NCBI RefSeq assembly: GCF_021209385.1
Contig: NZ_JAJOIL010000007.1
Coordinates: 1 to 64,000, forward strand
DNA: 64,000 nt
Direction of reading: 5' to 3'
DNA from: Seleniivibrio sp.
Lineage (GTDB): Bacteria; Chrysiogenota; Deferribacteres; Deferribacterales; Geovibrionaceae
In this document: positions 354-52,166 of the stretch, in pieces
How the letters are laid out: each line of letters opens with the position of its first letter
Numbering within the stretch: position 1 is the stretch's first letter
Notes under the pieces: generated by a model
What the model was told of the DNA's origin: nothing
Databases searched by the model: none
The model's input: the letters and a program-made list of their open reading frames with translations, nothing else
Made by a program: the position numbers and the translations under genes

Positions 354-2426
354 TTAAAATCTGTAATTCACTTCCATGCCAACGGTTCTTGGTTCACCCA
401 TATAGTTGAACGCTGTGCCTGAACCGCCGTCGCGCATCCATGTAAAGTATTCCTTGTCTCCAAGGTTCCTCACGAACAGATACACTTCGTATCCCTTCTG
501 CGATTCATATCCGATTTTTGCATTCATTATTTCGTATGCATCAACGGATTTTTCAGATGTGTTTGCCTTTGTATAATAGGTTCTGCCTGTGTGCCTGATA
601 TCGAATATGCCCACAAGCCCTGTGGAATGTCTGTATGATACTCCCGCCGTACCTGTGAATTTCGGAGCGCCTATCATATATTTGCCGTCATAGTTCACTG
701 AATCGACGACAAAATCATCATATTTCGCTTCCATGAGACCCGCTGTGGCGAAGATATCCAGTCCCTTTGCAACCCGCGCAGCAATATCCGCCTCTATACC
801 TGTGGTGTGTGCTTTACCCGCGTTTTTAACTGCGAAGATGGTGGATGAATAAAGCACCTCAAGCACCTGCATGTCATCGTAATCGGTGTGGAAGATATTC
901 GCGTTGAACATCACTCTGTTGTCGAAAAATTTGGATTTCATACCAATTTCATAGTTCATAGATTTTGTTTCGTCGAAAGATGCATGGTCTTTGTCGGCAG
1001 TTGTATAGTTGAAACCGCCGGGTGTGTAGCCCTGCGACACCAGCGCGTAAAAGTTAATGTTAGAAGAGGGGCTGTATGTCAGAGACATCTTGCCCAGAGC
1101 GGCAGACCAGTCCTTGTCAACTGTGTAGCTGTCGTCCGACATCACTGTTCCGCCTGCTGACATGATAAGTCTGTAGTCCATCTCCCTTTCGGTTCTTTCA
1201 TATCTGCCGCCCAGAGTCAGTGCTAATTTGTCGGAAAAGAGCGGAAGCGTTGTTTCTGCGAAAGCGGCAGCGGTGGTTGAATCCGTAACGGGTTTCCAGT
1301 TATATTTGTAGGTTGTCACAATATAGTCGTACATGCTGGACATCTCGTTCACGTCCATTTTGCTTTTATCGTAATACAGCCCGCCGAGCCATTTTATGCG
1401 GCTTTTATCCGATGAGGTGAAGCGTAACTCCTGAGAAAACGTCGGCAATTCAAAATCCTGCTGTCCCATTATGTATGCGCCGGACTGATAACCCATAAGG
1501 ATAACTTCATCAGTATCCACATTTTTGTACGAGCTGACGGATGTTATGTTCACACTGTCCAGAGCAAAATCCATATTGAGCTGTAACGTGTCGGTTTTTG
1601 ATGTTGTGTCGTCATATCTGCTTTTGTCGAACCCGCTGTAAATATCGTATGTGGGGGTGTCGGAAAAAACAGTGGGAGTGCTGACACCCTTCGCGTCGTT
1701 GTGGGTGTATTTCAGCATTATGTCGCTTTTTTGTGTGGGGGTTGCCCGCAGTTTTGCGGAATAGTAGTATTTTTCCGATTGATCGACATGCTTGGTTCCG
1801 CCGGGAGTCTTGTCTTCTATATATCCGTCGGTTTGTTCATATCCGCCTGAAAGTCCGAAATACAGCTTATCCTTCTGTATTGGACCTGAAACGGCAAACT
1901 TTGTCCTGAAAGTGTCGCGTTCCTCAACGGTGAACCCGATATTTCCTGTGTAGATATTCGACGGCTTTTTGGTGACGACGTTGATGGCACCGCTCATGGC
2001 GTTTTTGCCGTAAAGGGTTCCCTGCGGTCCTCTGAGAACTTCAATGCGTTCGATGTCCTCGAACGTGAAGTTATAACCGAAGTTGCTGTCGCTGGGCAGT
2101 CCGTCGACGTTCATAACCATAGGGCTTGCCGCCAGAAACTCGTTGGATGTCATACCTCTGGAAACTATCCATGTCTGGTTCAGACCCCAGTTGGTATCTA
2201 TCATGACGTTCGGGACATATCTGCCCAGATCAGCCATATTGTTCATCCCTGCGTCCTGAACGAACGTATCAGTCATAACGTTCATCGGTGCGGCGACCTT
2301 CTGTGCGTCCTCCGCCCTTTTTTCCGCAGTAACCGTAATTGTCTCAAGCTGCAGATCATCTGCAAAACAAACGCTTGATAACAGCGTCAAAATGGCCATG
2401 ACGCCAATAATCCGAAAATGCCTCAT
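354..2426 (-). CDS. TonB-dependent siderophore receptor (FyuA/FptA-like)
   Basis: Outer-membrane gated receptor, probably for an iron-siderophore complex, energised by TonB-ExbB-ExbD. The start at 2426 is chosen because CAGGAGG lies 8 bases upstream; the resulting 690-residue protein begins with a signal peptide (about residues 1-22) and then a TonB-box-like LETITVTAEKR. The plug domain carries VLRGPQGTLYG and GAINVVTKKP, both standard for the family. The barrel ends in a terminal aromatic (NYRF). Length is normal for the family. Downstream of the AraC gene at 2511 on the same strand, it probably depends on that regulator, as fyuA/fptA depend on YbtA/PchR. The substrate cannot be read from the sequence. 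Confidence 0.9.
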   Translation of the reverse strand: MRHFRIIGVMAILTLLSSVCFADDLQLETITVTAEKRAEDAQKVAAPMNVMTDTFVQDAGMNNMADLGRYVPNVMIDTNWGLNQTWIVSRGMTSNEFLAASPMVMNVDGLPSDSNFGYNFTFEDIERIEVLRGPQGTLYGKNAMSGAINVVTKKPSNIYTGNIGFTVEERDTFRTKFAVSGPIQKDKLYFGLSGGYEQTDGYIEDKTPGGTKHVDQSEKYYYSAKLRATPTQKSDIMLKYTHNDAKGVSTPTVFSDTPTYDIYSGFDKSRYDDTTSKTDTLQLNMDFALDSVNITSVSSYKNVDTDEVILMGYQSGAYIMGQQDFELPTFSQELRFTSSDKSRIKWLGGLYYDKSKMDVNEMSSMYDYIVTTYKYNWKPVTDSTTAAAFAETTLPLFSDKLALTLGGRYERTEREMDYRLIMSAGGTVMSDDSYTVDKDWSAALGKMSLTYSPSSNINFYALVSQGYTPGGFNYTTADKDHASFDETKSMNYEIGMKSKFFDNRVMFNANIFHTDYDDMQVLEVLYSSTIFAVKNAGKAHTTGIEADIAARVAKGLDIFATAGLMEAKYDDFVVDSVNYDGKYMIGAPKFTGTAGVSYRHSTGLVGIFDIRHTGRTYYTKANTSEKSVDAYEIMNAKIGYESQKGYEVYLFVRNLGDKEYFTWMRDGGSGTAFNYMGEPRTVGMEVNYRF

Positions 2427-2510
2427 AGTTCTAACCTCCTGAATATTAGGCATTTTCATCGTACATTTTCCGTTATGTTTTCTCTGCTCTCAAACGGATT
2501 GAAAGTTGTT

Positions 2511-3560
2511 TTAAACGGAGTACCTTATTCGGCTTTGTGTTATGTCGCTTTTGACATGGAACAGCATCTGCCCGGGGGTAACGTTGAAGTGTTTTTTGAA
2601 GGCCTTTATGAAGTGGCTGACGTTGGTATAGCCCACCGTCCACGCTATTTCGCTTACGGAGTATTCGCCTGTTTCAAGCATCATCTTTGCTTTTGCCATG
2701 CGCTCTGTCTGGATGAAACCGTATACCGTTACGCCGAATACTTCTTTGAAGCCTGCTTTGAGTTTGAAATCGTTTATGCCTGAAAGCCTTGCCAGCTCGC
2801 TTATGCTTGGCGGAGTATCAAGATGTTCGGTGATATACCCGCAAAGGTCGCGTAATTTGTCCACTTCTCCCGGCTGTAGAACGGATTTTTTTATCTGTTC
2901 ACAACCTGTCAGGAAAAAATCTGAAAAAACGCTGCTGAGTATCTCGAAAACCTTTGATTTTATGAAAAGCTCCCTCTTGGGAGATGCCAGCGAACAGCCG
3001 AGTATTGACCTTGCCGCGCCAAGCATGAGAGGTGATGCCGGAACTGATATTTCGTAAAAACTGTCGTTGTCGCCGAAATAGTCCAGCATATCTTCCCTAA
3101 CAAGGTGCATTTCGTCTTTGAAATGCACTCTGGCAAAGTTGCGGTCGAACGCTATGCTTACAGCCTGCGTCGGCTTGCCTTTGGTTTTTATGGTTCTGCC
3201 GGAAGTGTTGTTGGATTTTGAAATGATAAGAGAGTTGCTCTTTTTATTCTCTGTCATAATCTCTTTTCCGTTCTTGTGAAAAAAGGATATCAGATCCGAT
3301 TCCAGAGTTATGCCGAAACCGATGGGACACTCGCTGACATCGTATTCCATGACCATTTCGACTTCCGAAGGGATGTCTATAATGTAGACATAAAGCCCGC
3401 TTTGTATCTGCAGCTGTTCGACATATTTGCTTAAACCGAACATTCTGAAAATGTGATTGCTGACATTGATACTGTCGTATTCCCCCGCGCTGTTTCTGAG
3501 CCTGTAAACAGCCACGTCCTTTTCTGTCACAATATTCATAACGGGGAAAGTTTCCTGCAT
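2511..3560 (-). CDS. AraC-family regulator, PchR-like
   Basis: DNA-binding activator of about 349 residues. The C-terminal 100 residues form the two-helix-turn-helix AraC domain (FKLKAGFKEVFG, then the ARxMLETGEYSVSEIAW segment and VGYTNVSHFIKAFKK), the PchR subtype that responds to a siderophore bound by the N-terminal domain. I chose ATG 3560 because GGGAGG lies 8 bases upstream; an in-frame GTG at 3578 would add six residues. It shares a divergent promoter with a second AraC gene at 3694 and precedes a TonB receptor by 84 bases, so receptor activation by this protein is likely. The ligand is unknown. Confidence 0.85.
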   Translation of the reverse strand: MQETFPVMNIVTEKDVAVYRLRNSAGEYDSINVSNHIFRMFGLSKYVEQLQIQSGLYVYIIDIPSEVEMVMEYDVSECPIGFGITLESDLISFFHKNGKEIMTENKKSNSLIISKSNNTSGRTIKTKGKPTQAVSIAFDRNFARVHFKDEMHLVREDMLDYFGDNDSFYEISVPASPLMLGAARSILGCSLASPKRELFIKSKVFEILSSVFSDFFLTGCEQIKKSVLQPGEVDKLRDLCGYITEHLDTPPSISELARLSGINDFKLKAGFKEVFGVTVYGFIQTERMAKAKMMLETGEYSVSEIAWTVGYTNVSHFIKAFKKHFNVTPGQMLFHVKSDITQSRIRYSV

Positions 3561-3590
3561 CCTCACATCCTCCCGCACAGCGTAATAATT

Positions 3591-3671
3591 TGATAATAAT
3601 TATCATACGATACTGCTGTCCGTGTCAAGAAAATAATGATATTGACTATCAAAATCACTTGATATTATAAT
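3591..3671. promoter_or_regulatory. Divergent promoter region with Fur-box-like repeats
   Basis: GATAATAATTATCAT at 3592-3606 and AATAATGATATTGACTATCA at 3632-3651 resemble Fur boxes. A good sigma-70 promoter for the rightward AraC gene is visible: TTGACT (3642-3647), an 18-base spacer and TATAAT (3666-3671). The second Fur-like site covers the -35 box, which is where iron-bound Fur would repress. Confidence 0.6.
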
Positions 3672-3693
3672 CCGTATACAAGGGAGGCGTTTT

Positions 3694-4793: not shown

Positions 4794-6800
4794 ATGAGCA
4801 GATTATTTTTAGCAGTCTTCCTGCTGATAGCCGTTTCTGCGGCGGCGGAAGAGGTGGTTCTCGACCCCATAGAGGTGACCGCCAATAAGATGTCGCAGGA
4901 CGTGCAGTCCGTGCCGGCGGGGATAACTGTATTTACTGATCAGGGTATTGCGGACAAGGGCATCACCCAGACCAAGGATGTCTTTGAGCGCACACCGAAC
5001 ATGTATCTCACCAAAATGGGGCCGCTCGGTTATGAGAATATGGCGTCTGTGAGAGGCATCACATCGTTTATGACGGGCAGTCCCGTTTTAAGCTTCTATG
5101 TGGACGACGTTTACTATCCCGGGTTTGATATAAACCTGCTGGACGTTGAGCGCATAGAGGTTCTGCGCGGTCCGCAGGGTACCATATACGGCAGAAATTC
5201 CGAGGCTGGCGTTATCAACATCATCACAAAACAACCATCAAACGAATGGAGCGGCTCACTCGGCGCTTCATACGGCAGTTACAACACCTACGAAACGAAT
5301 TTCAGCGGCAACGGGGCGCTTGTAAAAGACAGGCTTTTTGTCCGCACCGCTTTGAAATACACATCGACAGACGGCTATTTTGAGAATAAATATGACGGTT
5401 CGGACGACGTTGACAAGGCAACTGCATTCGACGGCAAGCTTGCCCTTACGCTTGTTCCAGACAGTGCATGGAAGATAGGGCTGAAAATCGACGGGCAGAA
5501 ATACGACAGCAACTATGCCGAGTTCAGCACTTTCGACAGCGTTAAGGACGGCGATTTCGATGTTGACGTGAACGAGCCTGGCAGTGTTGAGCGGGACGCA
5601 TACGGAATATCGCTGAAAGCTGACCGTGACGGAAAGGGCGGGAAATTCACGTCCATTACCAGTTTCAGGAACGAGAAATATGACAGCCTTAACGATCTCG
5701 ACTTTACTTCGTATGACATGATGGAGCTTTCCACCTATAAAAAGACCGATTCATTCAGTCAGGAATTCAGATATGTGTCAGGAGGCACTGCATCTCCCGT
5801 CAGATTCACATCCGGTCTGTATTTCTATAAGGAGAAAGAGGAACAGGTGGTCGGTTTCGATATGATAGCCTACAGCGTTCTTTCCATGAGATACGGCGAT
5901 ACGGACACCACAGGCGCGGCTGTGTACGGACAGGCTGACTATACAGTCGGGAAATTCGTTTTGACGGCGGGTCTTCGATATGAGAATACACAGAAGGATT
6001 TTGACTACCGCTGGTCGGGCGGAAATATGATCGGCTACACCGACACAGACGGCTCCACAGACAAGTCATTTGACGCGGTTCTTCCCAAGGCGTCCGTAAC
6101 CTATAACTTCACAGATAATTTCAGGGCGTTCGTCAGTGCATCCAGAGGTTTCAGAAGCGGTGGCTTTAACCTGAACTCCGACGTTGGCAGGGAATATGAT
6201 TCCGAGTTCACATGGAACTATGAAGCGGGTGTTAAGGCGGAACTTCTGAACAGGAAGATGATGGTCAGCGCGTCCGTGTTCCACATAGACTGGACGGATA
6301 TGCAGGTTGAACTTCCTTCCTATCCTGACTTTGTGATAGAGAATGCGGCGGAAGCGAAAAGTCAGGGCTTTGAGGCGGAGATAAGATATCTCCCTGTCGG
6401 CTGGGCGGAAGTTTATGCCGGCGTGGGTTTTGTGGACGCGGAGTTTGAGGACTATGAAACCACTTCGGGTGACTATTCCGGTAACAAGGTTCCGAACGTT
6501 CCGGCAAATACCTTTAACGTCGGAACAACTTTAAGGTTTCTTAACAACTGGTTTGTGAACACCGAAATGACGGGTGCCGGAAAGATAGAGTATGACTCAG
6601 AGAATTCTATGCACCAGAACTCATATCAGGTGGTCAACGCCAAGATAGGCTATGAGACGGAACGTTTCGACGTGTATCTTTGGGCGAAAAACCTGTTCGA
6701 TGAGGCATACGCAACAAGAGCTTTCGAGATGAGCGGCGAATGGTATGCAAGGGCAGGCGACCCTCGAACCATCGGCGTGAATATGAACTACAGATTCTGA
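4794..6800 (+). CDS. TonB-dependent siderophore receptor
   Basis: A 668-residue outer-membrane receptor. ATG 4794 follows ACGGAGG; an upstream in-frame extension into the AraC gene is ignored. The N-terminus is a signal peptide ending in a small-residue run near residue 17, then LDPIEVTANKM as the TonB-box region. The plug has VLRGPQGTIYGRNS and GVINIITKQPS. The C-terminus is MNYRF. It forms a pair with the AraC gene upstream, mirroring the leftward regulator/receptor pair, so the 354-6800 block looks like an inverted duplication of a regulator-receptor cassette that has since diverged. The substrate is unknown; a phenolate or other siderophore is a guess from FyuA/FptA-like features. Confidence 0.88.
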   Translation: MSRLFLAVFLLIAVSAAAEEVVLDPIEVTANKMSQDVQSVPAGITVFTDQGIADKGITQTKDVFERTPNMYLTKMGPLGYENMASVRGITSFMTGSPVLSFYVDDVYYPGFDINLLDVERIEVLRGPQGTIYGRNSEAGVINIITKQPSNEWSGSLGASYGSYNTYETNFSGNGALVKDRLFVRTALKYTSTDGYFENKYDGSDDVDKATAFDGKLALTLVPDSAWKIGLKIDGQKYDSNYAEFSTFDSVKDGDFDVDVNEPGSVERDAYGISLKADRDGKGGKFTSITSFRNEKYDSLNDLDFTSYDMMELSTYKKTDSFSQEFRYVSGGTASPVRFTSGLYFYKEKEEQVVGFDMIAYSVLSMRYGDTDTTGAAVYGQADYTVGKFVLTAGLRYENTQKDFDYRWSGGNMIGYTDTDGSTDKSFDAVLPKASVTYNFTDNFRAFVSASRGFRSGGFNLNSDVGREYDSEFTWNYEAGVKAELLNRKMMVSASVFHIDWTDMQVELPSYPDFVIENAAEAKSQGFEAEIRYLPVGWAEVYAGVGFVDAEFEDYETTSGDYSGNKVPNVPANTFNVGTTLRFLNNWFVNTEMTGAGKIEYDSENSMHQNSYQVVNAKIGYETERFDVYLWAKNLFDEAYATRAFEMSGEWYARAGDPRTIGVNMNYRF

Positions 6801-6810
6801 TAAATCATAT

Positions 6811-6841
6811 GTGCGCCGCACTCTTTGTGGCGCACTTTTTC
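6811..6841 (+). terminator. Rho-independent terminator
   Basis: GTGCGCC (6811-6817) pairs with GGCGCAC (6829-6835) and is followed by a T-run. It lies 10 bases after the receptor stop. Confidence 0.85.
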
Positions 6842-6967
6842 TATGCATTATTATTTTCATTATTGCATATTCGGTTTTTTAATAAAACATCACAGCAGTA
6901 TCAGCCATATAAGAAATAATCCATTATTTAAAAGTATATTACACCGATTTCCGCGGCAAAAAGCATG

Positions 6968-6996
6968 TTGACACCTGTGCAAGTCTGAAAGATATT
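6968..6996 (+). promoter_or_regulatory. Candidate sigma-70 promoter of anfA
   Basis: TTGACA (6968-6973), a 17-base spacer and GATATT (6991-6996) lie about 65 bases before the anfA start. The -35 box is perfect; the -10 box matches 4 of 6. The rest of 6842-7062 shows no other convincing signal to me. Confidence 0.45.
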
Positions 6997-7062
6997 AGAA
7001 AATACAACGGTTTAAGGCAGGGCTTTGATTTATTTTCTAAACATAGGAACGAGGAAAATTCA

Positions 7063-8687
7063 ATGCCGTGCGGAAATAAACAGAGCAAACAGACAGAGTT
7101 CAAAGAGAATAATAGTCAGATAATACAGTCACATGTGGAGGCGGTGAACAAGTGCCGCAGCCATGAATGTCGTGCCAAGGTCTTTCCTCTGCTCTATCAG
7201 ATGAGCAGCGTCATAGCGGAAAGCTCCGACCTTTCACACACTCTCATAATCCTCCGCCGCATAATGAAACGCGAAATGAAGATGGTCTGCGGGATGATAT
7301 GCCTTTGCCACCAGCGCACCGGAAGAATCTTTATACACGACAGCTTCGGATTGACGGAAGCGGAGGAGTCAAAGGTATATATGACATGGGCGAGGGCATC
7401 ACGGGTAAGGTTGCCGAGACCGGAAAGCCTATCATGCTGTCCCGCGTGAGCGACGAGCCGACTTTTCTCCACAGAACCCGCGAACTTAAATACGGCATAG
7501 ATCAGGAGCTCTCCTTTATCTGCGTTCCCATAAAGCGCGGGCAGAAGGTGCTTGGCACTATAAGCGCGGAGCGGATATACGACAGCGCAAAACTTCTTGA
7601 ACAGGATGTCGAACTGCTCTCCACCTTCGCAGGGGTCATAGCCCCTGTGGTTGATCTGTACCTCATGGAGAACGTCGACAAGCCTATGCTGGAGCGGGAG
7701 AACAAGCGCCTTAACGACGCTCTTAAAAAGCGGTTCAGACCGTCCAACATCATAGGCAATTCAAAAGCCATGACAGAGGTTTATAACTATATAGGCAAGA
7801 TAGCTGCCACAAAGACCACCGTGCTTATTCTGGGCGAAAGCGGAGTAGGCAAAGAGCTTGTGGCAGGCGCGATACATTATAACAGTCCCCTTTCGGAAGG
7901 TCCGTTCGTTAAATTCAACTGTGCGGCGCTTCCTGAAAATATCATAGAGAGCGAGCTTTTCGGTCACGAAAAGGGTTCGTTCACAGGCGCCGTTGCGCCC
8001 CGTATCGGGCGTTTTGAAGAGGCACATGGCGGCACAATTTTTCTGGACGAGGTGGGCGAGCTTTCGCTTGCCATGCAGGCGAAACTGCTTCGTGTTTTAC
8101 AGGAAAAGACGTTTGAACGGGTGGGAAGCAACAAGCCTGTTAAGGTGGATATACGCATCATAGCCGCCACAAACCGCAATCTGTCGGATATGGTGACAAA
8201 CGGCACCTTCCGCGAAGACCTGTATTACAGGCTGAACATCTTTCCCATCACAATACCGCCGCTGCGGGACAGGGACAGCGACATAATCATCCTTGCCGAT
8301 CACTTTGTGGCACACTATTCAAAAGAGCAGAAGAAAAAGGTGAAACGCATCTCCACACCTGCCATAAACATGCTGATGAGCTACCACTGGCCGGGCAACG
8401 TGAGGGAGCTTGAAAACGCCATCGAGCGGGCGGTGATACTTTCGGAGGATGAGGTCATACACGGTTATAACCTTCCGCCTTCGCTTCAGAAACCGGTGCT
8501 TTCGGACACGGCTTCTCAGGGCGGGCTTGAGGCAAAACTTGCCGCGGTTGAGTATGAGATGCTTGTGGAAGCGCTCAAAACCCACAACGGAAATATATCC
8601 GAAGCCGCCGAAGAACTTGGCGTGACACGCAGGATATTCGGTCTGCGGCTTGCCAAATACAAAATAGATTACAGGACGTTCCGCTGA
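7063..8687 (+). CDS. anfA: AnfA/VnfA/NifA-type sigma-54 activator, frame-disrupted
   Basis: Enhancer-binding activator of the alternative nitrogenase. Read across one frame change it is about 541 residues, the usual AnfA size. The N-terminus (from ATG 7063, GAGGAA upstream) has a Cys motif KCRSHEC like the Cys-rich lead of AnfA/VnfA. The GAF domain follows. The AAA+ domain has [14 protein letters not shown] and the sigma-54 contact surface; a Fis-type helix-turn-helix ([16 protein letters not shown]) ends the protein. The frame changes near 7371-7375: the first frame gives [15 protein letters not shown] and the other resumes [13 protein letters not shown]. One missing A in the AAA run would explain it. 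It may be a sequencing error, a real null allele, or slippage on A-AAG. It overlaps draT at its stop. Confidence 0.85.
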
Positions 8688-18377: not shown

Positions 18378-19817
18378 ATGTCTAACTTATTGTCTGTTGA
18401 CCCTGTCAGCCGTATTGAGGGACACATGAGTGTCAGCACGGCTGTTGAAGGAGGAAGGGTCTCCAAGGTTCGTATTTCCGGTAATATGTACCGCGGACTT
18501 GAAAGACTCCTTTTGAACCGCCATCCTGTGGATTCGGCGCGCATTGCCCAAAGGGTCTGCGGAGTCTGCCACGAGGTACACGGAATCTCCTCCATTACTG
18601 CGTTGGAGCAGATATACAGAGTTGTGCCTCCGCACAACGGGCAGGTTCTGAGGGATATGATCCTTGGACTGCACATCGTTACCGACCACCTTCTCCACTT
18701 CTACAATCTTTGTTCCCCCGACTACATAGACTACTCAGCCGCCGCCGGATATTCCGGAAGGGATGCCGAAATGAAGAATATATCCGACTGGATAAGCTCT
18801 TCCGGCACGAAGTTTGTCATCAACAAAACTCCGGGGGACTATATAAAGGACAAAGGCACCGCAAGGCGCTTTGCCCTGCATTATTTTCAGGCGCTTAAGA
18901 TACGCGCGGAGGCAGCTTCCGGTCTGGCACTCATCGGCGGGAAGGTTCCATTTATCCATGCGCTTCTGCCGGGCGGAATCACGACCGAGATAACTCCAGA
19001 TACGCTCATGAGATACTACCGTGTTCTAACCGAAACGACGGATTTTGTGAACAATGCTTTCATCCCCGACGTTATGGAGCTTGCGGAGCGCTATCCGGAA
19101 TATTTCAAGATCGGCGGAGCATACGACACTTTCTATGCCCACGACTCACTTAAATATAAGAAAGGATACCTTTTTACATCCGGCGTTATCATCGACGGCG
19201 AAAAACGTAAATTTGACTATAAGATGGTGAAGGAACTTCTCAATTCTTCATATTACAATCCCGACGGCAGTCCTAACGAATCTGCTAAGGGCGCATACAG
19301 CTGGATAAAGTCCCCTCGCTATAACGGATATCCCCTTGAAACGGGACCCATAGCCCGCGCGGCTCTGTCTAACGATGCAGGTTTCAGACAGCTTATCGCC
19401 AGATACGGTCAGACGTCTATCCGCTCATCTGTTATGACAAGGCTTCTTGCCCGCGCATACGAATCGCGCAGAATATGCAACTATCTGTTTGAGCGTTCGG
19501 AGGATTTTGTTATCGGTAAACCCACGATAGCACATGTTGACCTGCAAAAGAAGCTCACGGGCGAAGGCATAGGTTTTTCACTTGCCGCCCGCGGCGCGCT
19601 CATACACCACATCAAGGCGTATGACGGAAGGGTCACTGATTATAAAATGATAGTGCCGTCCACATGGAACTTCGGTCCCACGGCGGCAGGCAAACACGGC
19701 GTTGCGGAGAAGGCGGTTCTGGGAACCCCTGTCCGTTTCGGCGGCGACAGCGGCTCAATAGAGGTCGGCAGGGTCATAAGAAGTTTCGACCCCTGCACGG
19801 CATGTTCTGTTCATTGA
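18378..19817 (+). CDS. [NiFe]-hydrogenase large subunit without C-terminal extension
   Basis: A 479-residue catalytic large subunit. The N-terminal VSRIEGH block and the first ligand motif RVCGVCHEVH (Cys61, Cys64) are present, and the second motif DPCTACSVH (Cys473, Cys476) ends the protein exactly at His479. Ordinary uptake hydrogenases carry a further 15-odd residues that a maturation protease removes; that tail is absent, as in sensory hydrogenases HoxC/HupV and in CooH. Gene order is large then small, the reverse of the usual. ATG 18378 has GAGGA 5 bases upstream. No maturation (hyp) genes or cytochrome b partner lie nearby. Whether it turns over or senses H2 cannot be decided here. Confidence 0.9.
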   Translation: MSNLLSVDPVSRIEGHMSVSTAVEGGRVSKVRISGNMYRGLERLLLNRHPVDSARIAQRVCGVCHEVHGISSITALEQIYRVVPPHNGQVLRDMILGLHIVTDHLLHFYNLCSPDYIDYSAAAGYSGRDAEMKNISDWISSSGTKFVINKTPGDYIKDKGTARRFALHYFQALKIRAEAASGLALIGGKVPFIHALLPGGITTEITPDTLMRYYRVLTETTDFVNNAFIPDVMELAERYPEYFKIGGAYDTFYAHDSLKYKKGYLFTSGVIIDGEKRKFDYKMVKELLNSSYYNPDGSPNESAKGAYSWIKSPRYNGYPLETGPIARAALSNDAGFRQLIARYGQTSIRSSVMTRLLARAYESRRICNYLFERSEDFVIGKPTIAHVDLQKKLTGEGIGFSLAARGALIHHIKAYDGRVTDYKMIVPSTWNFGPTAAGKHGVAEKAVLGTPVRFGGDSGSIEVGRVIRSFDPCTACSVH

Positions 19818-19827
19818 GGTGCGAAAG

Positions 19828-20787
19828 ATGCTGAGCAGAAGAGATTTCATCAAAAGATGCAGAGATATATCGGTAGCGGTCATAGGAGCGGAGGTTTTCG
19901 CCACGGACATAGCCGAAGGCTTCATGAGGATAGCGGCTTCAAAGCGTCCCCAGATAGTTTTCGTTCAGGGGCAGAGCTGTACCGGCTGTTCCATCTCAAT
20001 GACATACGGCAATGAATCGGATTTCATAGATTTTGTGACTAGGTTGGTCAGGGTGCAGGTGCATCCGAACCTTTCCTTCAGTCAGGGTCACGGCTACATA
20101 CAAATGCTTGAAGAGGTTACATCCGCAGGCGGTCATATCCTTGTGCTTGAGGGGAGCATCCCCCAGCGCATGAAAAAGGCATGCCTTCTGGGTGAGGAAC
20201 CCCTTTATGATGCTCTGAAAAAACACCTTCAGAAAGCTTATGCCGTTGTTGCCTGCGGAACCTGCGCGGTTTCCGGCGGAATACCCGCATCCGGCAGAAA
20301 CGAGACCGGAGCCATTGACATCGACCAGTATATGCGCCAGTGCGGCATAAGCAAACCGCTGATAAAAATCCCCGGCTGTCCGGCACACCCCGACAGGCTC
20401 ATGGGAACGGTGGCATATATTCTGGGCAGCGGGAAGATGCCTCCCATGAAGGACGGCGTACCCCAGCAGTATTTCGGCAACCTCATCCACAACAACTGCG
20501 GACGTTTTCAGTATTTCTCGCAGGATATCTACCTTAAAGATTTTGAGATTGATAAACACTCCTGCCTTCTGAAAAAAGGATGCAGAGGCACCATCACAAA
20601 ATCCGACTGCCCCACAAGGCGGTGGAACGGAGGCGTGAGCGTCTGCGTTGAAAGCAACGCCCCCTGCGTCGGCTGTACGCATAACGGATGGCCTTTCAAA
20701 GAGAATATCTATTACGAATCGCGGAACATTGAAGACCTTCCGTGGACAGACTTCAAAAAGAACGTACTGGGGATGGGTAAGAAATGA
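19828..20787 (+). CDS. [NiFe]-hydrogenase small subunit with Tat signal
   Basis: About 319 residues. The Tat motif SRRDFIK starts at residue 3 and a hydrophobic stretch follows, so the LS pair is exported folded. Proximal cluster ligands: CTGC (51-54), CGTC (143-146) and GCPAHP (Cys184). Distal cluster: HNNC (His221, Cys224), Cys246, Cys252. Medial cluster: Cys261, Cys280, Cys283. I place the start at ATG 19828, which has GAGGTG 6 bases upstream, rather than GTG 19819. No C-terminal membrane anchor is visible, so its electron acceptor must be soluble or another protein. The next gene overlaps it by 4 bases (ATGA). Confidence 0.9.
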
Positions 20788-22703
20788 TAAATTTTGATAA
20801 AAAATACCGCTTATCTCTCAAACATAAGATGGCAATAGCAACCGTTCTGATCATTGCGTTCACCATCTTAGGCACCATCGTCTTTGAAAATATCAAACTC
20901 AGGATGATCGAAAAATCCCTTAACAGATATATGAACTACCTTAAGGACATGATATACATGTCCACCTTTGACGCCCTTAAAAAAGGGAACATGATGACGT
21001 TCAACAATCTTATTGAGGAGATCGGCAAATATGAGGACGTTACCGAGTTTTCACTGATAAAGCCAGACGGAACAATCAGCTATTCGTCGCAGAGTAATAG
21101 GGTTAACACAAAAGTGGACACTGCGATCCTTACAGATAAAGAGGATATGCATCCGGAAGGTGACAACAACGTATATCTTTTCCCTGTAAAAACCATCGGT
21201 TACTGCATGCGCTGTCACACGGAATGGCAGGAAGGCGGAATCAACTCATATTATTATGTTAAACTCAGCAGGAAATCGCTGAACAACGTTCAGAGCATGT
21301 CTATGATATCGGACATCTTCGTGGTAATAAGCGGCTGTCTGATGATATTTGTCATATATTTTCTTGTGTCCAAGCTTGTCATACGAAACGTGGGCAGACT
21401 TCAGGACACCATTGTGCAGGCGGCGGAAAATCTTGACCTCAGCCTTGAATCTGACATTAAGACCAACGACGAGATGGGTGAGATATCCGACAGATATAAT
21501 AAGTTTATGCACGTTATCGGAAACGACATACTGCACACATTCAGATCCATTTCAAACATGATGGAACAGGCGCTTCCGCTGACGCTGACCACCATGCAGA
21601 TAAAAGAGATGAACACAGAGACCATGAGGCTTGCCGGAGAGGTTGCAGCTGCCAGTGAGGAGATAAGCGCCACTGTACGGGATTCTGCGGAGAACATCAG
21701 CGATTCATCGGTTAAGGCGGAGCAGACACTTGAAATGTCGAAGAAAGGACTTGAGGTTATGCTTGAAACCACGGCTATATCAACTGAGGTCGGCAATATT
21801 GTCAGCCTTCTTGCTGGGGAGATGAACGAGCTTCTCGGTTCCTCCAAAGAGGTTGGGGATATCGTCATGGTTATTACCGATATCACGGAACAGACAAACC
21901 TGCTTGCGCTCAATGCGGCAATTGAAGCGGCGAGGGCGGGTGAAGCGGGACGCGGATTCTCTGTTGTTGCGGACGAGGTTCGCAAGCTTGCAGAGAAGAC
22001 CAACGAGTCTGCATCCAATATATCAAGCGTTGTTAAAGCTATGCAGACCAAAGTGCAGAGCGCGGTTGACAACGCAGACGACGTTATGAAAAAGGTCAGA
22101 GTTCAGCTTGAAAGAGTTAACGATGCCAACGATAAATTCATGACAATACAGTCTTCTGTTGAAGACCTCAGCTCCAACATGACGCACATATCATCTTCCG
22201 TCCAGCAGCAGTCTGCGGCAATGACCCAGATAGCGGCGAATATTGACGAGGTTGCCCGCATGAGCGATGCCAACTCCGGCAGCATAGATGCTATGGTGGG
22301 CGGCGTTGAGACCGTTGTGGGACTTCTTGACGAATCAGAGAAAGAACTTAAAAAATTCACTCTCCAGTCCGTCGTCCTGCCCGTGATACACGCTAAGGTC
22401 AGCCATGTGCTTATGACCAAGAACATATATCACGGAGCGATGTATAAAAAACCGGTAAGCCTTGATAGCTACGATAACTGCGCTTTCACGGAGTTTTACA
22501 GAGGACGTGGCAGGGAGGTATTCGGAAACGACCCTGACTACAGAGAGATTGAGACGGTTCACCGCTCTCAGCATGACACTGCGGAAAAAATTCGGATCAG
22601 AATAGCCAAGGGCGAAACTGTTACGGATGAACTTGATATCCTTCAAGGTCATACGGAGAAGCTGGTTTCTCTTATGAATGGATTGATTGAGAGATATATG
22701 TAA
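20784..22703 (+). CDS. Chemoreceptor with periplasmic haem-c motif and C-terminal CZB domain
   Basis: A 639-residue MCP. Membrane segments lie near residues 14-34 and 177-198; the periplasmic part between them contains CMRCH (141-145), a covalent haem-c site. A HAMP-like linker follows, then the signalling hairpin tip ([18 protein letters not shown] near 370-390). After residue 530 a CZB-like zinc domain appears, with spaced His, Cys and HRSQH residues ([28 protein letters not shown]). The start overlaps the hydrogenase stop, so the three genes are co-translated. DcrA of Desulfovibrio and Geobacter receptors show that haem-c MCPs exist as redox sensors. Coupling to hydrogenase electrons is my inference from the operon. 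Confidence 0.88.
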
Positions 22704-22714
22704 AGAACTTTAAG

Positions 22715-22748
22715 GGCAATCGGAAAAGACACCGGTTGCCTTTTTTTT
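22715..22748. terminator. Bidirectional terminator
   Basis: GGCAATCGG (22715-22723) pairs with CCGGTTGCC (22732-22740), followed by eight T. It ends the rightward hydrogenase-MCP operon and abuts the 3' end of the leftward response regulator. Confidence 0.85.
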
Positions 22749-22749
22749 A

Positions 22750-24144
22750 TTAATTATTCGTTTTATCCAGATTTTTAAGCAGCTTGTGGAGTGTTTGGCG
22801 TGTTATGCCGAGAATTTTTGCGGCATCGGTTATGTTGCCTTTGCTGTGGTTTAAGGCTGAAGAGATCAGAATGGATTCCATCTTTTTTATGGTGGGGAAA
22901 TCTCCTGCATAATAAAACGGTTCGGATAGATTTTCTTTGGTACCTGTGCGTGGGTTTATATCGTGTCTGCGCATGAAGGATATCATGTCGCGGCTGTTGA
23001 GTTTTCTGCCGCGCGTAACCATGGCGAGGTCATTCATTATCGCCTGAAGCTGGCGAACGTTTCCCGGAAAACTGTAGTTTCTTAATATATCACCTATCCC
23101 CTGCGGCAGTGCCGCCGACATCAGACATCCTGATTCAAGAAGTGCCTTGTTGTAAAAATTCAGCGCCAGAAGCTCTATGTCGTCCTTCCTGTCGCGCAGA
23201 GGCGGGATGGTTATACAGTGGGTCGATATACGGAAAAGAAGGTCTTTTCTGAATTTTCCGGCTTTGACGTTGTTTTTAAGGTTAACACTCGTTGCGGCTA
23301 TGATGCGCACGTTGGCTTTGACGTTGCGGTCTGTTCCCAGAGGCATGTAGACCTTTTCCTGTAAAAGTCTCAAAAGTTTTATCTGTGCCGATTCGTTCAG
23401 GTCGCCTATCTCGTCCAGAAACAATGTTCCGTTCTCAGCTTCAGCAACAAGCCCTCTGCGAGGTTTTTCAGCCCCGGTGAAGGCTCCTTTTGTATGACCG
23501 AAGAGAGTGTCGGTGAACATGTTGTCGTCCAGACCGGAGATGTTTACGGCGACGTAGGAACCTTTCTGTCCGCTTGCCTTATGAACCGCTTCCGCAAAAA
23601 GTTCTTTGCCTGTTCCTGTTTCTCCCGTGATAAGAACGGGGAAGGTACTTTCAGAGACGAAGTTCAGATATCTGAATATTTCGAGCATTTTGCTGTTGCA
23701 CGTTATTATATTGCTGAAGAAAGAATTATGTTCGATTCTGCCTGTGGATGGTATTTGAAGTTCTGAGCTGTATCTCTTGTATACCTCAAGGGCGCGGAGT
23801 ATTACTTCGGCAAAAGCGTCCTTTTCAACGGGCTTGACAACGAAACTCACCGCTCCTTTTTGGAGGCAGCGCACGGCGGATTCGGTCTCGTTCTTCTCAA
23901 TCATCATCACAACCGAAGATTGCGGAAAACTTTGCGAGATGATTTCAAGTATTTCTTCACCATTTTGATGCGGCATATTCATATCGAGAAGAATGATGGC
24001 AGGATCAATTTTATCGGAGTCTTTCAGAAATTCTCGCGTATCATTGAAAGCTACTATGTCTGTTGCCCCTAACTGTCTGAGGCTACGGACATACATATCG
24101 GTCAGTTCTTTTTCATCATCAATTATAACAACTTGTGAGATCAT
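22750..24144 (-). CDS. NtrC-family sigma-54 response regulator
   Basis: A 464-residue regulator. The receiver domain has DD at 9-10 and phospho-acceptor Asp54 (ILLDMNMP). The AAA+ domain starts near residue 140 with GETGTGKE, an intact GAFTGA sigma-54 contact and FLDEIGD. A Fis-type helix-turn-helix ends the protein (NITDAAKILGITRQTLHKLL). ATG 24144 is used. It is divergent from the chemotaxis operon across a spacer with a perfect sigma-54 promoter, so it is the best local candidate to activate that operon. Its cognate kinase is not adjacent. Confidence 0.9.
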   Translation of the reverse strand: MISQVVIIDDEKELTDMYVRSLRQLGATDIVAFNDTREFLKDSDKIDPAIILLDMNMPHQNGEEILEIISQSFPQSSVVMMIEKNETESAVRCLQKGAVSFVVKPVEKDAFAEVILRALEVYKRYSSELQIPSTGRIEHNSFFSNIITCNSKMLEIFRYLNFVSESTFPVLITGETGTGKELFAEAVHKASGQKGSYVAVNISGLDDNMFTDTLFGHTKGAFTGAEKPRRGLVAEAENGTLFLDEIGDLNESAQIKLLRLLQEKVYMPLGTDRNVKANVRIIAATSVNLKNNVKAGKFRKDLLFRISTHCITIPPLRDRKDDIELLALNFYNKALLESGCLMSAALPQGIGDILRNYSFPGNVRQLQAIMNDLAMVTRGRKLNSRDMISFMRRHDINPRTGTKENLSEPFYYAGDFPTIKKMESILISSALNHSKGNITDAAKILGITRQTLHKLLKNLDKTNN

Positions 24145-24972: not shown

Positions 24973-24988
24973 TGGCACTGTTATTGCA
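24973..24988 (+). promoter_or_regulatory. Sigma-54 promoter of the chemotaxis operon
   Basis: TGGCACTGTTATTGCA matches the -24/-12 consensus TGGCAC-N5-TTGCA at every fixed position. A start near 25000 would leave a leader of about 210 bases before the first gene. Confidence 0.8.
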
Positions 24989-46603: not shown

Positions 46604-49600
46604 TCAGCCGCCGGACGTGAGTTTTTCCATGCGGTCTATGGCGAGCAGATGGTCAAGTTCCGCGCTCAGGTTATCCGCCAGCGCTTTTTTTACGGCAGCC
46701 TGCGCCTTTGCGTATGCCGCTTCGCTTATCACACCAGCCGCGTATCTGTCGGCATTTATTCGTAACTGCTCTTTGTAAAGTTCAAGCGACTCGCGGGCAA
46801 CGTCTTTCATCTGTGCAGTCTGCTGAATGGAGTTATATGTCTTTATGACGTCCGTTTCGGTCTGTTCACGCACACGCAGAAGGTTTTGTGAAGCCTGAGC
46901 CGCCTGTGAATCCATGGATATCCTGTTGCCCTTCTTTTTGCCCCAGTCCAGAATGTTCCAGTCCAGTTTCAAGCCGACCACGGTTATGTTGTCGTTCAGA
47001 TATGATACTCCGTCGGTGTATATTTCTGCCGCGAACAGGGTAACATCCGGTATATATTCATAAACAGCCGCTTTCTGTCCGTGGCGGGCTTTTTCAAGTG
47101 TCTGTTTTGCAGACATGATGTCTGTGTTGGAAGCGGAAGCCTTTTCAATATATTGTTGACGCGTCAGTGTCTCCGCTCTGTCAGCCGGTATTTCAGCAGG
47201 GATAATAACTGTTCCCGCAGGCTGTCCGGTCAGAGTGTTCAGGTCTGCGTTGTAGTTTTCATAGCTGTTCTGTGCCGCCATCAGGTTCTGTCTGCTTTGC
47301 AGAAGCGCCGCTTTCGCCTCTATAACCGAAACTTCAAGCACACTGCCGGAGCTTACTCCGTCCAGCGCTTCCTTAAGGGCTAATTGTGCCCCTCTCTGCG
47401 CCGCGTGTGCCGCATCCTCCTGCGCATATGCTATCAGAAGTCCGTAATAAAGGCTTTTCACTGCGTATGCTATCTCATCCTGTGCTTTTTTCATATCGGC
47501 TTCGGATATCTTTCTGTCAGCTTTTGCCGCGCCGACGTTCTCTTTTATTTTAAGGAGCTGTGTCAGTGGCTGGGCTATTATGCCGTATGCCATTGCGGTT
47601 GCTCCGGAGGTCTTTACGTCATAGTCCGATGCGGGCAGTGAAAACCCTGCCACCGAACCAAGATCACCTGCGGGAATTACAGCCAGATTGTCCTGCAATG
47701 TGTCCGAATATGAACCTGATATCTTAACCTGCGGAAAATAGTCCGCCTTTGCGCCTGTAACTTTGCCATCAGCCTCGTCTATGCGAGCCTGTGCTATCTT
47801 TATGACGCGGCTGTTGTCCATTGCTGATTTAAGCGCCTGCTCCAGCGTCATGTTCACTGTTTCCGCATGCGCTGTGGAAACGATGAAGAACAATGCGAGA
47901 ACTGCAACTGCCGGGCTTTTAACGCGTTTGCCCATGACGATGACATAAAGCACCGGAACAACCAGCAGTGTGAAGAACATGGAAAATATCAGCCCCACCG
48001 CCATAACGCTTGCGAGGGGACTCCAGAGTGTCGAGCCTGAAAGTATCATAGGTATAACGCCTACCGCCGCCGCCATGGTCGTAAGGAAGATGGGGCGCAG
48101 TCTGCGCTGTCCCGCTTCCATTGCGGCAAGCTCAATGGGGTGTCCTTCCGCTATCTTCTCTTTTATGTAATCCACCAGTATGATGGAGTTTCTGACAACT
48201 ATACCGCTCAGGCTTATGACCCCCATGAAAGCGGTGAACCCGAACGGATTGCCAGTTATGAACAGACCAAACATCGCACCAAGAATGGAGAGCGGTATGG
48301 ACGACATGACTATGAGGGGTTCGCTGAAATTGCGGAATTGAACCAGCAAGACGATGAATATCGCCAGAAGGCTTATGCCCAAAGCACTTATCATCTGCGG
48401 CATTGTCTCTTCCTGATTGGAATTTTCACCGCCGTATGTCACTGTGTAGCCTTCGGGCAGGTTCAGTTTTTCTATCTTCGGTCGTATCTCGTTCAGCATT
48501 GATGATGCGTAATGTCCCTTTTTGATGAAGGCGTTGACGGTTATCGTCCGCACGCCGTTGCGCCGCACGAGACGGCTTGTCTGCCATTGGGGTTTGATGT
48601 CGGCAAAAGCCTTGACCGCTATGCCTTTTCCCGTTACTGACGATGCGACGTATGAGTCCTCTATGTCGCCGAAGTTTTTGCGCTTATCTTCCGGCAGTCT
48701 GAATATGATGGGAATACTTCTGTCGCCTTCGTGGTATATGCTGATGGTCTGCCCGTCCAGCGCCGCATCCAATGTGCCTGACACTCCGTAGTTCGTAATT
48801 CCCAATCGATTAGCCAGCTCATTATTAACCTCAACGTCCACCATTCCGGAGTCGTTGAAATAGTTGGTGTGGATGTCTCTGCTGTAAGGCACCTCGCGCA
48901 TGATAGCCATAACGTCGTTTGCCGCTTTTTTGAGGGTAGGGATGTCATAGCCTGATATCCGCACCTCTATGGGGGCTTCCATCTGCTGACCCTGCTGGAG
49001 TTCCTTCACAAGAACCAGTGCTTCGGGTGTCTCTTTGCCAAGCTTGGAGCTCAGTGAGCCGACCAGTTTTTTAGTCGCCTCAACAGATTCGGTGTTCACG
49101 ATTATCTGCGCATAGGCAGTGTCGGGCTGCTGCGGGTTAACATTATAATAGAACCTCGGCGCGCTCTGACCTATAAAAGATGCGTAGTGCAGAACTCCTT
49201 TGGTGTCCTTTAAAGTGTTTTCTATGTGAGCAACTGTCGTGTCGGTGCTGTCGGTCTTTGTCCCCTGCGGCATCCAGATGTCTATGGTGAACTGATTGCG
49301 CTCCGCAGAGGGGAAGAATTCCTGCGGGATATGCATGTAAAGGTACAGACCGCAGACGAACGACAGGATACCGATGCCTACGGCAAAGGTTTTGTTTTTC
49401 ATGAAAAACCGCATGTTATGCCCGTATGCCGTTTGCAGGAAGTCCAGCAGGCTGAATTTTTTCACTTTAGTTTCGCTATGCAGCCCTTTTTTGATAAAAA
49501 ATCGGCAGATTATCGGCGTAAGCAGTGTCGCAACGATGAACGATGTGGAAAGGGCAATGGTAACTGTCAGCGGAAGCGCCCTGATGAACTCGCCCACGGA

Positions 49601-50965
49601 GCCTGTGAGTATCAGCATGGGGAGAAACGCGCAGATGATCGTCACGGTGGCTGTCAGGACGGGGATCAGCACCTCGCCCACGGCACGCCATCCGACCTCT
49701 TCGCCTGTTACCTTTCTGTCCAGCAGATCGACGTAGTTGTCTGCAATAACAATCGCATCGTCAACCACAATTCCAAGCACCAGAATCAGCGATGCTATGG
49801 ACACCTGATGCAGCTCTATGCCGAAAAAGTTCATCACGGCAAGGGTAGCAAGGAGCGTGACGGGAATTGCCAGAGCCGCGATCACCGCCACCCTTATCGG
49901 GAGCAGAATAATTGTGACTATTATTACCGATGCTATCGCCAGCAGAAATTCATGGGTGAGCGATTCCATCCTGTCGGAAACCACCTGCGGCTGGTTAGCT
50001 ATCATGTCGAGTTTTATGTCAGGCGGCAGTATATTGTTAATCCTTGTGAAAACGCCAGAAAGACTCTCGCCGAGCTGTACTATGTTGTTTCCTTTCTGCA
50101 TCTCAACTGAAATTATGATACTCGGCTTTCCGTCGTAACGAACCTTGAAGTCGGAATCTTCATATGTTCTTGTCACATCGGCGATATCCCGCACATATAG
50201 CGGCTGTCCCGTCTGTGAAACGTTTATCAGTGTATTCCGTATGTCGTCCAGCGATGAGTATTCGCCTGTGGTCTTGACAGGTATGGACGTTGTATCCGTG
50301 TCCAGAGTTCCCGCACCGCCGGTGACATTTCGCGCCTGTATGGTCTGAATCATTCCTGCCGGGGTGACGGAGAACTGAGCCATCCTTTTCAGATCGCCCT
50401 TAATCTGTATCTGTTCCTCTTTTTCGCCGTAAAGCGCCAGTTTGCCCACTTCGCGCACGGTACGCATCTCGTCCTCTATCCTTTCGGCGTAGTCCTTAAG
50501 CTGTGTGTATGTGTAGTTATCACCATGCACCGCGAGAAGCATCGCCACTGTGTCGCCGAAGTCAGAAACCACCATGACACCGCGAACGCCTCTGGGAAGT
50601 TCTGTGTACGAAGTTTCGTTCATTTCGTGGCGCAGTTTTGCCCAGAAAAGGTCTGCATCCTTCACACTGTCTTCGAGTTCAACGTTTATTATCGCTATGC
50701 CGGGTCTGCTGGTGGAATAAGTCCTGCTTTTGTATACTTCCTGATATTTGAAGATATGCCTTTCAAGCACCTTTGTGACCTGTTTTTCCACCTCTTCTGT
50801 GGTTGCGCCCGGATAGGACGCCATTACAAGTCCTGTGCGGATAGTTATTGAAGGGTCTTCCGTCTTCGGCATGGTGAAGAAGGCATGAAGCCCGACGGCA
50901 AGCATAAGAAGCGCCATGAAAATGGCGACTGCGGGGTATTTCTGCGAAGCTTTTACAAGATTCAT
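46604..50965 (-). CDS. RND transporter fused to TolC-like outer-membrane factor
   Basis: A single open frame of 1453 residues. Residues 1-1010 are an HAE1-type RND pump: membrane segments, PGATTEEVEKQVT, VVDDAIVIADNYVDLL with paired Asp in TM4, GVISLSGIVVRNSIILVDY and a final VVPVLYVIVMGK. Residues 1011-1034 look like a signal peptide (MGKRVKSPAVAVLALFF and a cleavage site AHA-E at 1034). The rest is a TolC/OEP-type outer-membrane factor. There is no stop or ribosome site between the parts. ATG 50965 has AGGGG 7 bases upstream. Either a bifunctional precursor cleaved at the internal signal, or a fusion. It is co-operonic with the adaptor and TetR genes. Confidence 0.9.
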   Translation of the reverse strand: MNLVKASQKYPAVAIFMALLMLAVGLHAFFTMPKTEDPSITIRTGLVMASYPGATTEEVEKQVTKVLERHIFKYQEVYKSRTYSTSRPGIAIINVELEDSVKDADLFWAKLRHEMNETSYTELPRGVRGVMVVSDFGDTVAMLLAVHGDNYTYTQLKDYAERIEDEMRTVREVGKLALYGEKEEQIQIKGDLKRMAQFSVTPAGMIQTIQARNVTGGAGTLDTDTTSIPVKTTGEYSSLDDIRNTLINVSQTGQPLYVRDIADVTRTYEDSDFKVRYDGKPSIIISVEMQKGNNIVQLGESLSGVFTRINNILPPDIKLDMIANQPQVVSDRMESLTHEFLLAIASVIIVTIILLPIRVAVIAALAIPVTLLATLAVMNFFGIELHQVSIASLILVLGIVVDDAIVIADNYVDLLDRKVTGEEVGWRAVGEVLIPVLTATVTIICAFLPMLILTGSVGEFIRALPLTVTIALSTSFIVATLLTPIICRFFIKKGLHSETKVKKFSLLDFLQTAYGHNMRFFMKNKTFAVGIGILSFVCGLYLYMHIPQEFFPSAERNQFTIDIWMPQGTKTDSTDTTVAHIENTLKDTKGVLHYASFIGQSAPRFYYNVNPQQPDTAYAQIIVNTESVEATKKLVGSLSSKLGKETPEALVLVKELQQGQQMEAPIEVRISGYDIPTLKKAANDVMAIMREVPYSRDIHTNYFNDSGMVDVEVNNELANRLGITNYGVSGTLDAALDGQTISIYHEGDRSIPIIFRLPEDKRKNFGDIEDSYVASSVTGKGIAVKAFADIKPQWQTSRLVRRNGVRTITVNAFIKKGHYASSMLNEIRPKIEKLNLPEGYTVTYGGENSNQEETMPQMISALGISLLAIFIVLLVQFRNFSEPLIVMSSIPLSILGAMFGLFITGNPFGFTAFMGVISLSGIVVRNSIILVDYIKEKIAEGHPIELAAMEAGQRRLRPIFLTTMAAAVGVIPMILSGSTLWSPLASVMAVGLIFSMFFTLLVVPVLYVIVMGKRVKSPAVAVLALFFIVSTAHAETVNMTLEQALKSAMDNSRVIKIAQARIDEADGKVTGAKADYFPQVKISGSYSDTLQDNLAVIPAGDLGSVAGFSLPASDYDVKTSGATAMAYGIIAQPLTQLLKIKENVGAAKADRKISEADMKKAQDEIAYAVKSLYYGLLIAYAQEDAAHAAQRGAQLALKEALDGVSSGSVLEVSVIEAKAALLQSRQNLMAAQNSYENYNADLNTLTGQPAGTVIIPAEIPADRAETLTRQQYIEKASASNTDIMSAKQTLEKARHGQKAAVYEYIPDVTLFAAEIYTDGVSYLNDNITVVGLKLDWNILDWGKKKGNRISMDSQAAQASQNLLRVREQTETDVIKTYNSIQQTAQMKDVARESLELYKEQLRINADRYAAGVISEAAYAKAQAAVKKALADNLSAELDHLLAIDRMEKLTSGG

Positions 50966-50975
50966 GAGAAAACCC

Positions 50976-52166
50976 CTATTTGACAGGGCTGACATCCAGC
51001 CCGTCAGAAAGTTTGTTCTGTCCGGCGGTGACTATCAATTCGTCGCCTTTCAGTCCCGATCTTATTATTGTTTGCTGTCCGTATACGGAGCCTGTTTCAA
51101 CCTGTTTGGAGTATGCTTTCTTTTTATCGGGGAAATAGACGTATACGATGGTTGCGCCCTGCGGGTCTCGCAGAACTGATTCAACAGGCACCGTCAGCGC
51201 CTTTACCGGCTGTTTAGTATCTATTGATATCTCCGCAACCATTCCCAGACGGATCGCATGATCCGGGTTCGGCACGGTTATTCTTGTCATGTAGGTTCTG
51301 GTGGCGGGATCAGCAGAAACGTTTATCACCCTTACGGTTCCGGTGAATTTTCTGTCGGGCATGGCGGGGACGGAAACGTCAGCCGTCTGCCCTGTGGCGG
51401 CGAAGCGGATGTCTGTTTCAGCTATGCCCGCGTTGACCTCCACCGGGTCGAGGGGGGATATCTCGAATACGGGATAGCCTGCCTGTATGGTTTCGCCGGC
51501 TTCACAGAGGCGCTTTGTCACAAATCCGCTGACGGGCGCTTTTAACACAGTGTCGTTCAGAGCTTTTTCCGCGAGCTTAACATATGCCGCTGCCTGTTCG
51601 TATCCTGCCTTAGCCTGTGCCTTGTCTTCGGGCTGTGCGCCTGTCTGAGCCATTTCATACTGTTGCTTTGCTGATTCGTATGCCGCTTTGAATTTTTCAA
51701 AATCGTTAGGGGCGAGGCTCTTATTGTCATATAGCATTTTCATGCGTCTGTATTCGTCCGACGCTCTGTCATATGCTATTTTTGCCTGTTCGAGCTGTTC
51801 CGCACGGGCAGGGGATTTCGCCTTCATGTAGGCGGCGTTCGCCATGTCAGCCGACGCCTTGGCTTTGTCCAGATTGCTTCTGTAGTCTGTGTTGTCAAGC
51901 TCCGCAAGCACCTGACCCGCCTGAACGTAGTCACCCTCTCTGGGGATGGATTTGACGACCCGTCCGCTGACGAGGAACGAAACCTTTGACGGGTTGTCCT
52001 GCGCCGTGATAACGCCGGATGCTGTTATTTTATATGTATCGTCGATGCGCTTTACCTGTGAAACCTTAACGGGTATCGGTTCGCGTTTCGGCTGTTCCTC
52101 TTTGCCTTTGCAGCCGACAAGTGAAATAATGAAAATTGCAATTAAAAAATATCCGATATTCTTCAT
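50976..52166 (-). CDS. RND periplasmic adaptor lipoprotein (HlyD/AcrA family)
   Basis: A 396-residue adaptor. The signal peptide has the lipobox LVGC with the lipidated Cys at about residue 19. The biotinyl-lipoyl half-motifs are split by a long coiled-coil rich in Ala, Lys and Glu (from DNTDYRSNLDKAKASADM to PEDKAQAKAGYEQAAAYV). It bridges the inner-membrane RND pump to the outer-membrane channel encoded in the next, fused gene. Its start overlaps the TetR stop by 4 bases (ATGA). Confidence 0.9.
   Translation of the reverse strand: MKNIGYFLIAIFIISLVGCKGKEEQPKREPIPVKVSQVKRIDDTYKITASGVITAQDNPSKVSFLVSGRVVKSIPREGDYVQAGQVLAELDNTDYRSNLDKAKASADMANAAYMKAKSPARAEQLEQAKIAYDRASDEYRRMKMLYDNKSLAPNDFEKFKAAYESAKQQYEMAQTGAQPEDKAQAKAGYEQAAAYVKLAEKALNDTVLKAPVSGFVTKRLCEAGETIQAGYPVFEISPLDPVEVNAGIAETDIRFAATGQTADVSVPAMPDRKFTGTVRVINVSADPATRTYMTRITVPNPDHAIRLGMVAEISIDTKQPVKALTVPVESVLRDPQGATIVYVYFPDKKKAYSKQVETGSVYGQQTIIRSGLKGDELIVTAGQNKLSDGLDVSPVK

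Follow-up and report, generated by a model that had tools for sequence, protein, structure and literature searches.

Gene organisation of the hydrogenase-receptor locus

The window analysed here, a 64,000-nucleotide stretch of Seleniivibrio sp. DNA, carries three consecutive forward-strand genes for a [NiFe]-hydrogenase large subunit (LSU, 18378-19817), a hydrogenase small subunit (SSU, 19828-20787) and a putative haem-c chemoreceptor (20784-22703). The LSU (479 aa; PF00374, E=5e-93) is group-1-like: the L1 (RxCGxCxxxH) and L2 (DPCxxCxxH) motifs of group 1 are both present and invariant in the LSU alignment, both subunits have their best PDB relatives among [NiFeSe] and [NiFe] group 1 enzymes, and the best NCBIfam matches also belong to group 1. 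L1 (RVCGVCHEVH, 18552-18581) provides the N-terminal Cys pair that ligates Ni/Fe, and its residues C61, C64 and H68 are invariant across 14 aligned homologues. L2 reads DPCTACSVH and is followed directly by the stop codon (19788-19817), leaving no trace of the C-terminal extension that is normally removed in maturation. Selenocysteine in L2 is ruled out, as its Cys codons are TGC and TGT rather than TGA.

The SSU (PF01058 and PF14720) starts at the ATG at 19828, with a GTG at 19819 as a possible alternative. Its N-terminus, MLSRRDFIK, includes the Tat signal SRRDFIK; the protein has ligands for three Fe-S clusters and lacks a C-terminal membrane anchor. The receptor (639 aa; PF00015, E=7e-45) places a periplasmic domain between two transmembrane segments, TM1 and TM2.

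A preliminary description of this DNA had proposed that a Tat-exported [NiFe]-hydrogenase pair shares one operon with the receptor, and the domains, the gene order and the position of the terminator confirm this. The 4-base overlap that it reported holds for the SSU stop and receptor start (ATGA), whereas the LSU and SSU genes are 10 bases apart. An intrinsic terminator with a 12-bp stem and a T-run closes the unit at 22712-22743 (+). It is the only strong forward-strand terminator in a sequence scan, which found none within the trio, the location at which a terminator had been named as counter-evidence. Judged by this layout, LSU, SSU and receptor are one operon.

No sigma-54 site turned up in a motif scan immediately upstream of the LSU gene. 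An exact sigma-54 -24/-12 consensus, TGGCACTGTTATTGCA, lies at 24973-24988 (+), about 150 bp upstream of a che cluster (from 25139), and adjoins an NtrC-like regulator gene at 22750-24144 (-). We rejected this regulator, the che cluster and a LysR gene (17120) as members of the unit, as they are not conserved beyond the genus. Elsewhere in the window, a single 1463-aa ORF at 46604-50995 (-) is a fusion in which an RND pump (ACR_tran) is joined to domains of the outer-membrane efflux protein type (OEP). The operon contains no hyp genes, as had been noted, although hypD is found elsewhere in the same genome (G000:C41). With hypD, cytochrome-c assembly genes and the che cluster just downstream of the trio all present, the machinery for maturation and output therefore exists in this organism.

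Recurrence of the trio and the missing LSU tail

We surveyed hundreds of unannotated genomes, mainly from two phyla and including 51 of the organism's own phylum and 395 Desulfobacterota, and found the trio in anaerobes belonging to at least two bacterial phyla. LSU homologues at 41-93% identity occur in 13 of the 51 own-phylum genomes, where ordinary group-1 enzymes reach 36-39%; in all 13 the order is LSU-SSU-receptor and the receptor has one CXXCH. A genome-contig scan found the identical order in Desulfobacterota and related bacteria (loci L061, L062, L063, L066 and L067), and an LSU-profile search of the 395 Desulfobacterota genomes returned 44 matches at 1e-120 or better.

Across all sets, every tail-less LSU that could be resolved, that is, one ending at the His of DPCxxCxxH, is followed by an SSU and then by a receptor that has two TMs and a single periplasmic CXXCH (40/40 unique loci, two further ones stopping at contig ends). 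Homologous operons lacking the receptor, which had been put forward as a counter-sign, are thus not a regular occurrence. By contrast, LSUs with an 11-17-residue tail, in loci read from the profile matches, have no such receptor, and 15 other own-phylum hydrogenases with tails of 7-15 aa have no receptor or MCP within their 1.5 kb flanks. In the tree set, receptor linkage is found for 38/38 tail-less and 0/28 tail-bearing group-1 LSUs (Fisher 3e-19, a value inflated by the relatedness of the rows and therefore a guide only). The known sensory and regulatory hydrogenases likewise lack the C-terminal tail.

In 34 of the 40 loci the receptor gene overlaps the SSU gene or is separated from it by at most 60 bases. 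The sole displaced receptor, in L040, owes its position to an insertion sequence, whose DDE transposase gene (6533-7951, +) landed between SSU and receptor in the opposite orientation. Because the order recurs in 40 loci, with linkage in every one, chance adjacency can be ruled out. As the preliminary description had stated for this locus, no respiratory partner accompanies the pair: no cytochrome partner is conserved beside the trio. In a quick tree the tail-less LSUs require one tail change (SH-aLRT 90), whereas a careful tree requires two, with a single change in 20% of bootstraps; the tail-less set thus may or may not have a single origin. Tail-bearing hydrogenases with LSU-SSU order and no haem receptor (L140, L141, L143) branch separately in the LSU tree.

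The reciprocal search gave a corresponding picture. With the haem-domain profile alone, the 395 Desulfobacterota genomes yielded 26 loci, 18 of which have an SSU within 1.5 kb upstream; the identity of these SSU-linked haem domains falls to 20-30%. In the organism's own phylum (Deferribacterota), 19 of 26 matches adjoin an SSU/LSU pair, L040 included. The remaining matches are mostly weak, with a few closer relatives that have no adjacent hydrogenase (L074, L185 and L193). The last of these (L193:1455-3564, +, genome G020) is closely related to the GGDEF-type receptors described below, has no hydrogenase within 1.5 kb upstream and is possibly an orphan left after hydrogenase loss. At L106:3388-4146 (+) the haem sensor stands alone: it has both TMs but neither an output domain nor a neighbouring hydrogenase, and the gene after it encodes an unrelated sensor of the Cache type. 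In L062 the trio has a divergently oriented neighbour (1947-3680, -), a second MCP of the haem type that carries a CXXCH and a Tll0287-like domain.

Conserved residues and architecture of the receptor

The sensor module of the receptor (20826-21368, +) comprises TM1, a periplasmic PAS-like domain and TM2. Its AlphaFold2 model (mean pLDDT 81.6) retrieved with Foldseek the extracytoplasmic PAS-like sensors WalK, CitA and DctB and, furthermore, the domain-swapped haem-c MCP sensors GSU0935 and GSU0582 (3b42/3b47; E ~0.01, high rmsd), so that model, fold search and motif agree on a PAS-like fold with a CXXCH between two TMs. The fold search did better than a PDB sequence search with the haem domain, which gave chance matches only. 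Against PF21563, the family of GSU0935-type sensors, the domain scores 13.2 bits, under the gathering score of 27.

The single CXXCH of the periplasmic domain, already pointed out in the preliminary description, is a CMRCH at 21204-21218 and is predicted to attach haem c covalently. Non-conservation of this motif had been named as grounds for doubt and is rejected here: CXXCH is present in 40/40 loci, as is an upstream Met, and both belong to the nine receptor positions that are at least 95% conserved. In our receptor the Met is Met70 (20991-20993), a candidate sixth haem ligand 75 residues before His145. In GSU0935, whose haem has a potential of -251 mV, His144 and Met60 ligate the haem and a ligand is swapped on redox change (PMC8396549). 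The Met70/His145 spacing resembles that of Met60/His144, which is an analogy rather than proof.

The MCP signalling domain occupies 21786-22262 (residues 335-493). The proposed CZB-like zinc domain at the C-terminus (22404-22592) gives a genuine match to PF13682, but its score of 24.8 bits is below the Pfam cut-off of 29.4. Its His/His/Cys/His/His pattern, a candidate for the 3His/1Cys set of zinc ligands, is retained in 8/8 orthologues, the closest ones being the only receptors to carry the domain. Most receptors have MCP outputs; PAS-PAS-GGDEF-EAL takes their place in L050 and L051, and PAS-PAS-GGDEF in L052, with hydrogenase and haem sensor kept in all three. That the output changes while hydrogenase and haem sensor travel together argues for a sensor unit and against a respiratory enzyme with a chance neighbour. 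These output swaps, like the absence of tail and anchor, go beyond the preliminary description.

In the SSUs the Tat RR is present in 40/40 loci and a C-terminal TM in 0/40. The Fe-S ligand Cys and His residues are almost all conserved, with a fourth medial Cys in 40/40. In seven SSUs (L061, L062, L063, L066, L067, L098 and L099) the second Cys of the proximal CxxC is replaced by Asp or Glu, the other ligands being kept. Active-site ligands and the Fe-S relay are intact. At V63 and L111, which we take to be equivalent to the gas-channel sites of RH-type enzymes, the residues are as in metabolic enzymes, and a narrow RH-type gas channel is not seen at these two presumed equivalents. The active site thus looks catalytically normal, and uptake activity may be compatible with it.

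A candidate periplasmic H2 sensor

We hypothesize, with a probability of about two in three, that the trio is a periplasmic H2/redox sensor in which hydrogenase electrons pass to the haem c of the receptor and set its signal. The Tat-exported hydrogenase would oxidise H2 in the periplasm, or equilibrate with the H2/H+ couple, and electrons would move through the three SSU clusters to the single haem in the PAS-like domain. The redox state of the haem, probably via Met binding and release as proposed for GSU0935 and GSU0582, would alter the transmembrane signal and hence CheA activity or, in some relatives, GGDEF/EAL enzymes attached to the same sensor. Other carriers in the periplasm would be needed to reoxidise the haem, and the receptor may therefore read the balance of H2 versus oxidant. 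Taking the GSU0935 potential, an equilibrium calculation puts the haem at half reduction near 3e-6 atm H2, or ~2.4 nM. The values usually reported for anoxic sediments span this concentration. Gene order, motifs, conservation, linkage, the absent tail and anchor, the output swaps and the predicted fold are observed; from them we infer that haem is attached, that the proteins form a complex and exchange electrons, that the unit responds to H2, and in which direction taxis runs. The preliminary reading of H2/redox sensing via haem is supported, since none of the three counter-signs named for it appeared as far as sequence can tell; reduction of the haem by H2 and taxis itself are the predicted parts of it.

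Other accounts of the same operon can be given. An ordinary periplasmic uptake hydrogenase could feed the cytochrome c pool while a co-expressed energy-taxis receptor, making no direct contact with it, reads general periplasmic redox. The intact active-site ligands and relay suit such an arrangement, and haem-c MCPs without hydrogenases are known (GSU0582/0935, PMC8396549; here L087 and L193). However, we consider it unlikely, given the strict one-to-one linkage of the receptor with tail-less LSUs only, the lack of a conserved cytochrome partner and the survival of the hydrogenase-sensor pairing when the output is swapped. The linkage to tail-less LSUs only is also left unexplained on the view that the haem is a binding site for O2, NO or CO and that the receptor, instead of responding to H2, lets cells avoid gases toxic to the hydrogenase. 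Although diatomic gases do bind to the haems of GSU0582 and GSU0935, and the literature treats DcrA as a redox/oxygen sensor (PMC8396549), this explanation is improbable, as other, tailed hydrogenases in the same genomes have no such receptor beside them.

It has also been proposed for HoxBC-HoxJ that hydrogenase state is sensed by protein contact, and group 2b sensory hydrogenases signal via a bound kinase (PMC5665086; PMC6978683). Applied to the trio, contact of this kind would leave the haem a structural role, which we find very improbable, since the conservation of CXXCH and the distant Met, both among the nine most constant receptor positions, fits a redox-active haem better than a structural one. 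Counting against the sensor reading itself are the close sensor relative without a hydrogenase (L193), the weaker relatives, which are often unlinked, and the catalytically normal look of the active site.

The trio resembles several known systems in part. Like the group 2b regulatory hydrogenases (HoxBC-HoxJ, HupUV-HupT), it couples a hydrogenase pair, in our reading also a sensor, to a signalling protein, and the ligands for three [4Fe-4S] clusters are common to both (PMC5665086). Those enzymes, however, are cytoplasmic members of group 2 without a Tat signal and with a histidine kinase partner, whereas the trio is Tat-exported, group-1-like and paired with a membrane haem-c receptor that has MCP or GGDEF outputs only. 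MCP or GGDEF output is shared with HydDB [FeFe] group C2, ‘chemotactic (putative)’, and [NiFe] group 2c, ‘diguanylate cyclase-linked (putative)’ (PMC5037454), but these are another enzyme class and group, the LSU here being a PF00374 [NiFe] protein and not an [FeFe] H-cluster protein; the HydDB table mentions neither haem receptor nor export for C2 or 2c. With GSU0582/GSU0935 (PF21563) and DcrA the receptor has in common a periplasmic PAS-like domain, one CXXCH, likely Met/His ligation and MCP output, and the review of these proteins mentions no hydrogenase with them (PMC8396549).

The periplasmic [NiFeSe] and group 1a-1b hydrogenases provide the closest PDB subunit sequences and share Tat export and, in [NiFeSe] enzymes, the fourth medial Cys. 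They nevertheless have a C-terminal tail, no such receptor and a respiratory assignment in HydDB, while the trio LSU has a tail of 0 residues and Cys in place of Sec. In HydDB, [NiFe] group 1 stands under the heading of respiratory uptake, and the sensory classes listed are 2b (kinase-linked), 2c and [FeFe] C1-C3 (PMC5037454). The trio would work like a regulatory hydrogenase, but it differs from group 2b in location and partner and from ordinary group 1 in lacking the tail; we therefore place it among the H2-sensing hydrogenases as a separate variant. Nautilia has a second hydrogenase that carries an uptake annotation and has been compared with enzymes of Desulfotalea (PMC2628731); it may be a further member of this type.

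In the open-access literature we found no paper describing a hydrogenase-haem receptor pairing and no receptor named for H2 taxis. A table in PMC12727194 lists an MCP cluster, number 29 with 87 genes, in the vicinity of [NiFe] large subunits, and we found no comment on it there. H2 taxis is reported for Methanococcus maripaludis, according to a title cited in PMC6864099, and suspected in Oleidesulfovibrio (PMC12004927).

Taken together, the trio looks like an undescribed bacterial route to H2 sensing and offers a concrete, recurring candidate for an H2-taxis receptor with a simple mechanism, in which the enzyme would reduce the haem of the receptor. In our best reading, [NiFe] group 1 holds a periplasmic sensory branch that would pass H2 electrons to a receptor haem. 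The chances seem evenly balanced that an entire group-1 branch, likely annotated as uptake, serves as an electron-wired H2-taxis receptor and, by output swap, places c-di-GMP under H2 control. The absent C-terminal tail, the LSU-SSU-receptor order and the CXXCH provide a signature for this type in genomes. If the reading is true, some of the hydrogenases that genome surveys assign to respiratory uptake would be sensors, and predictions of H2 use would be affected.
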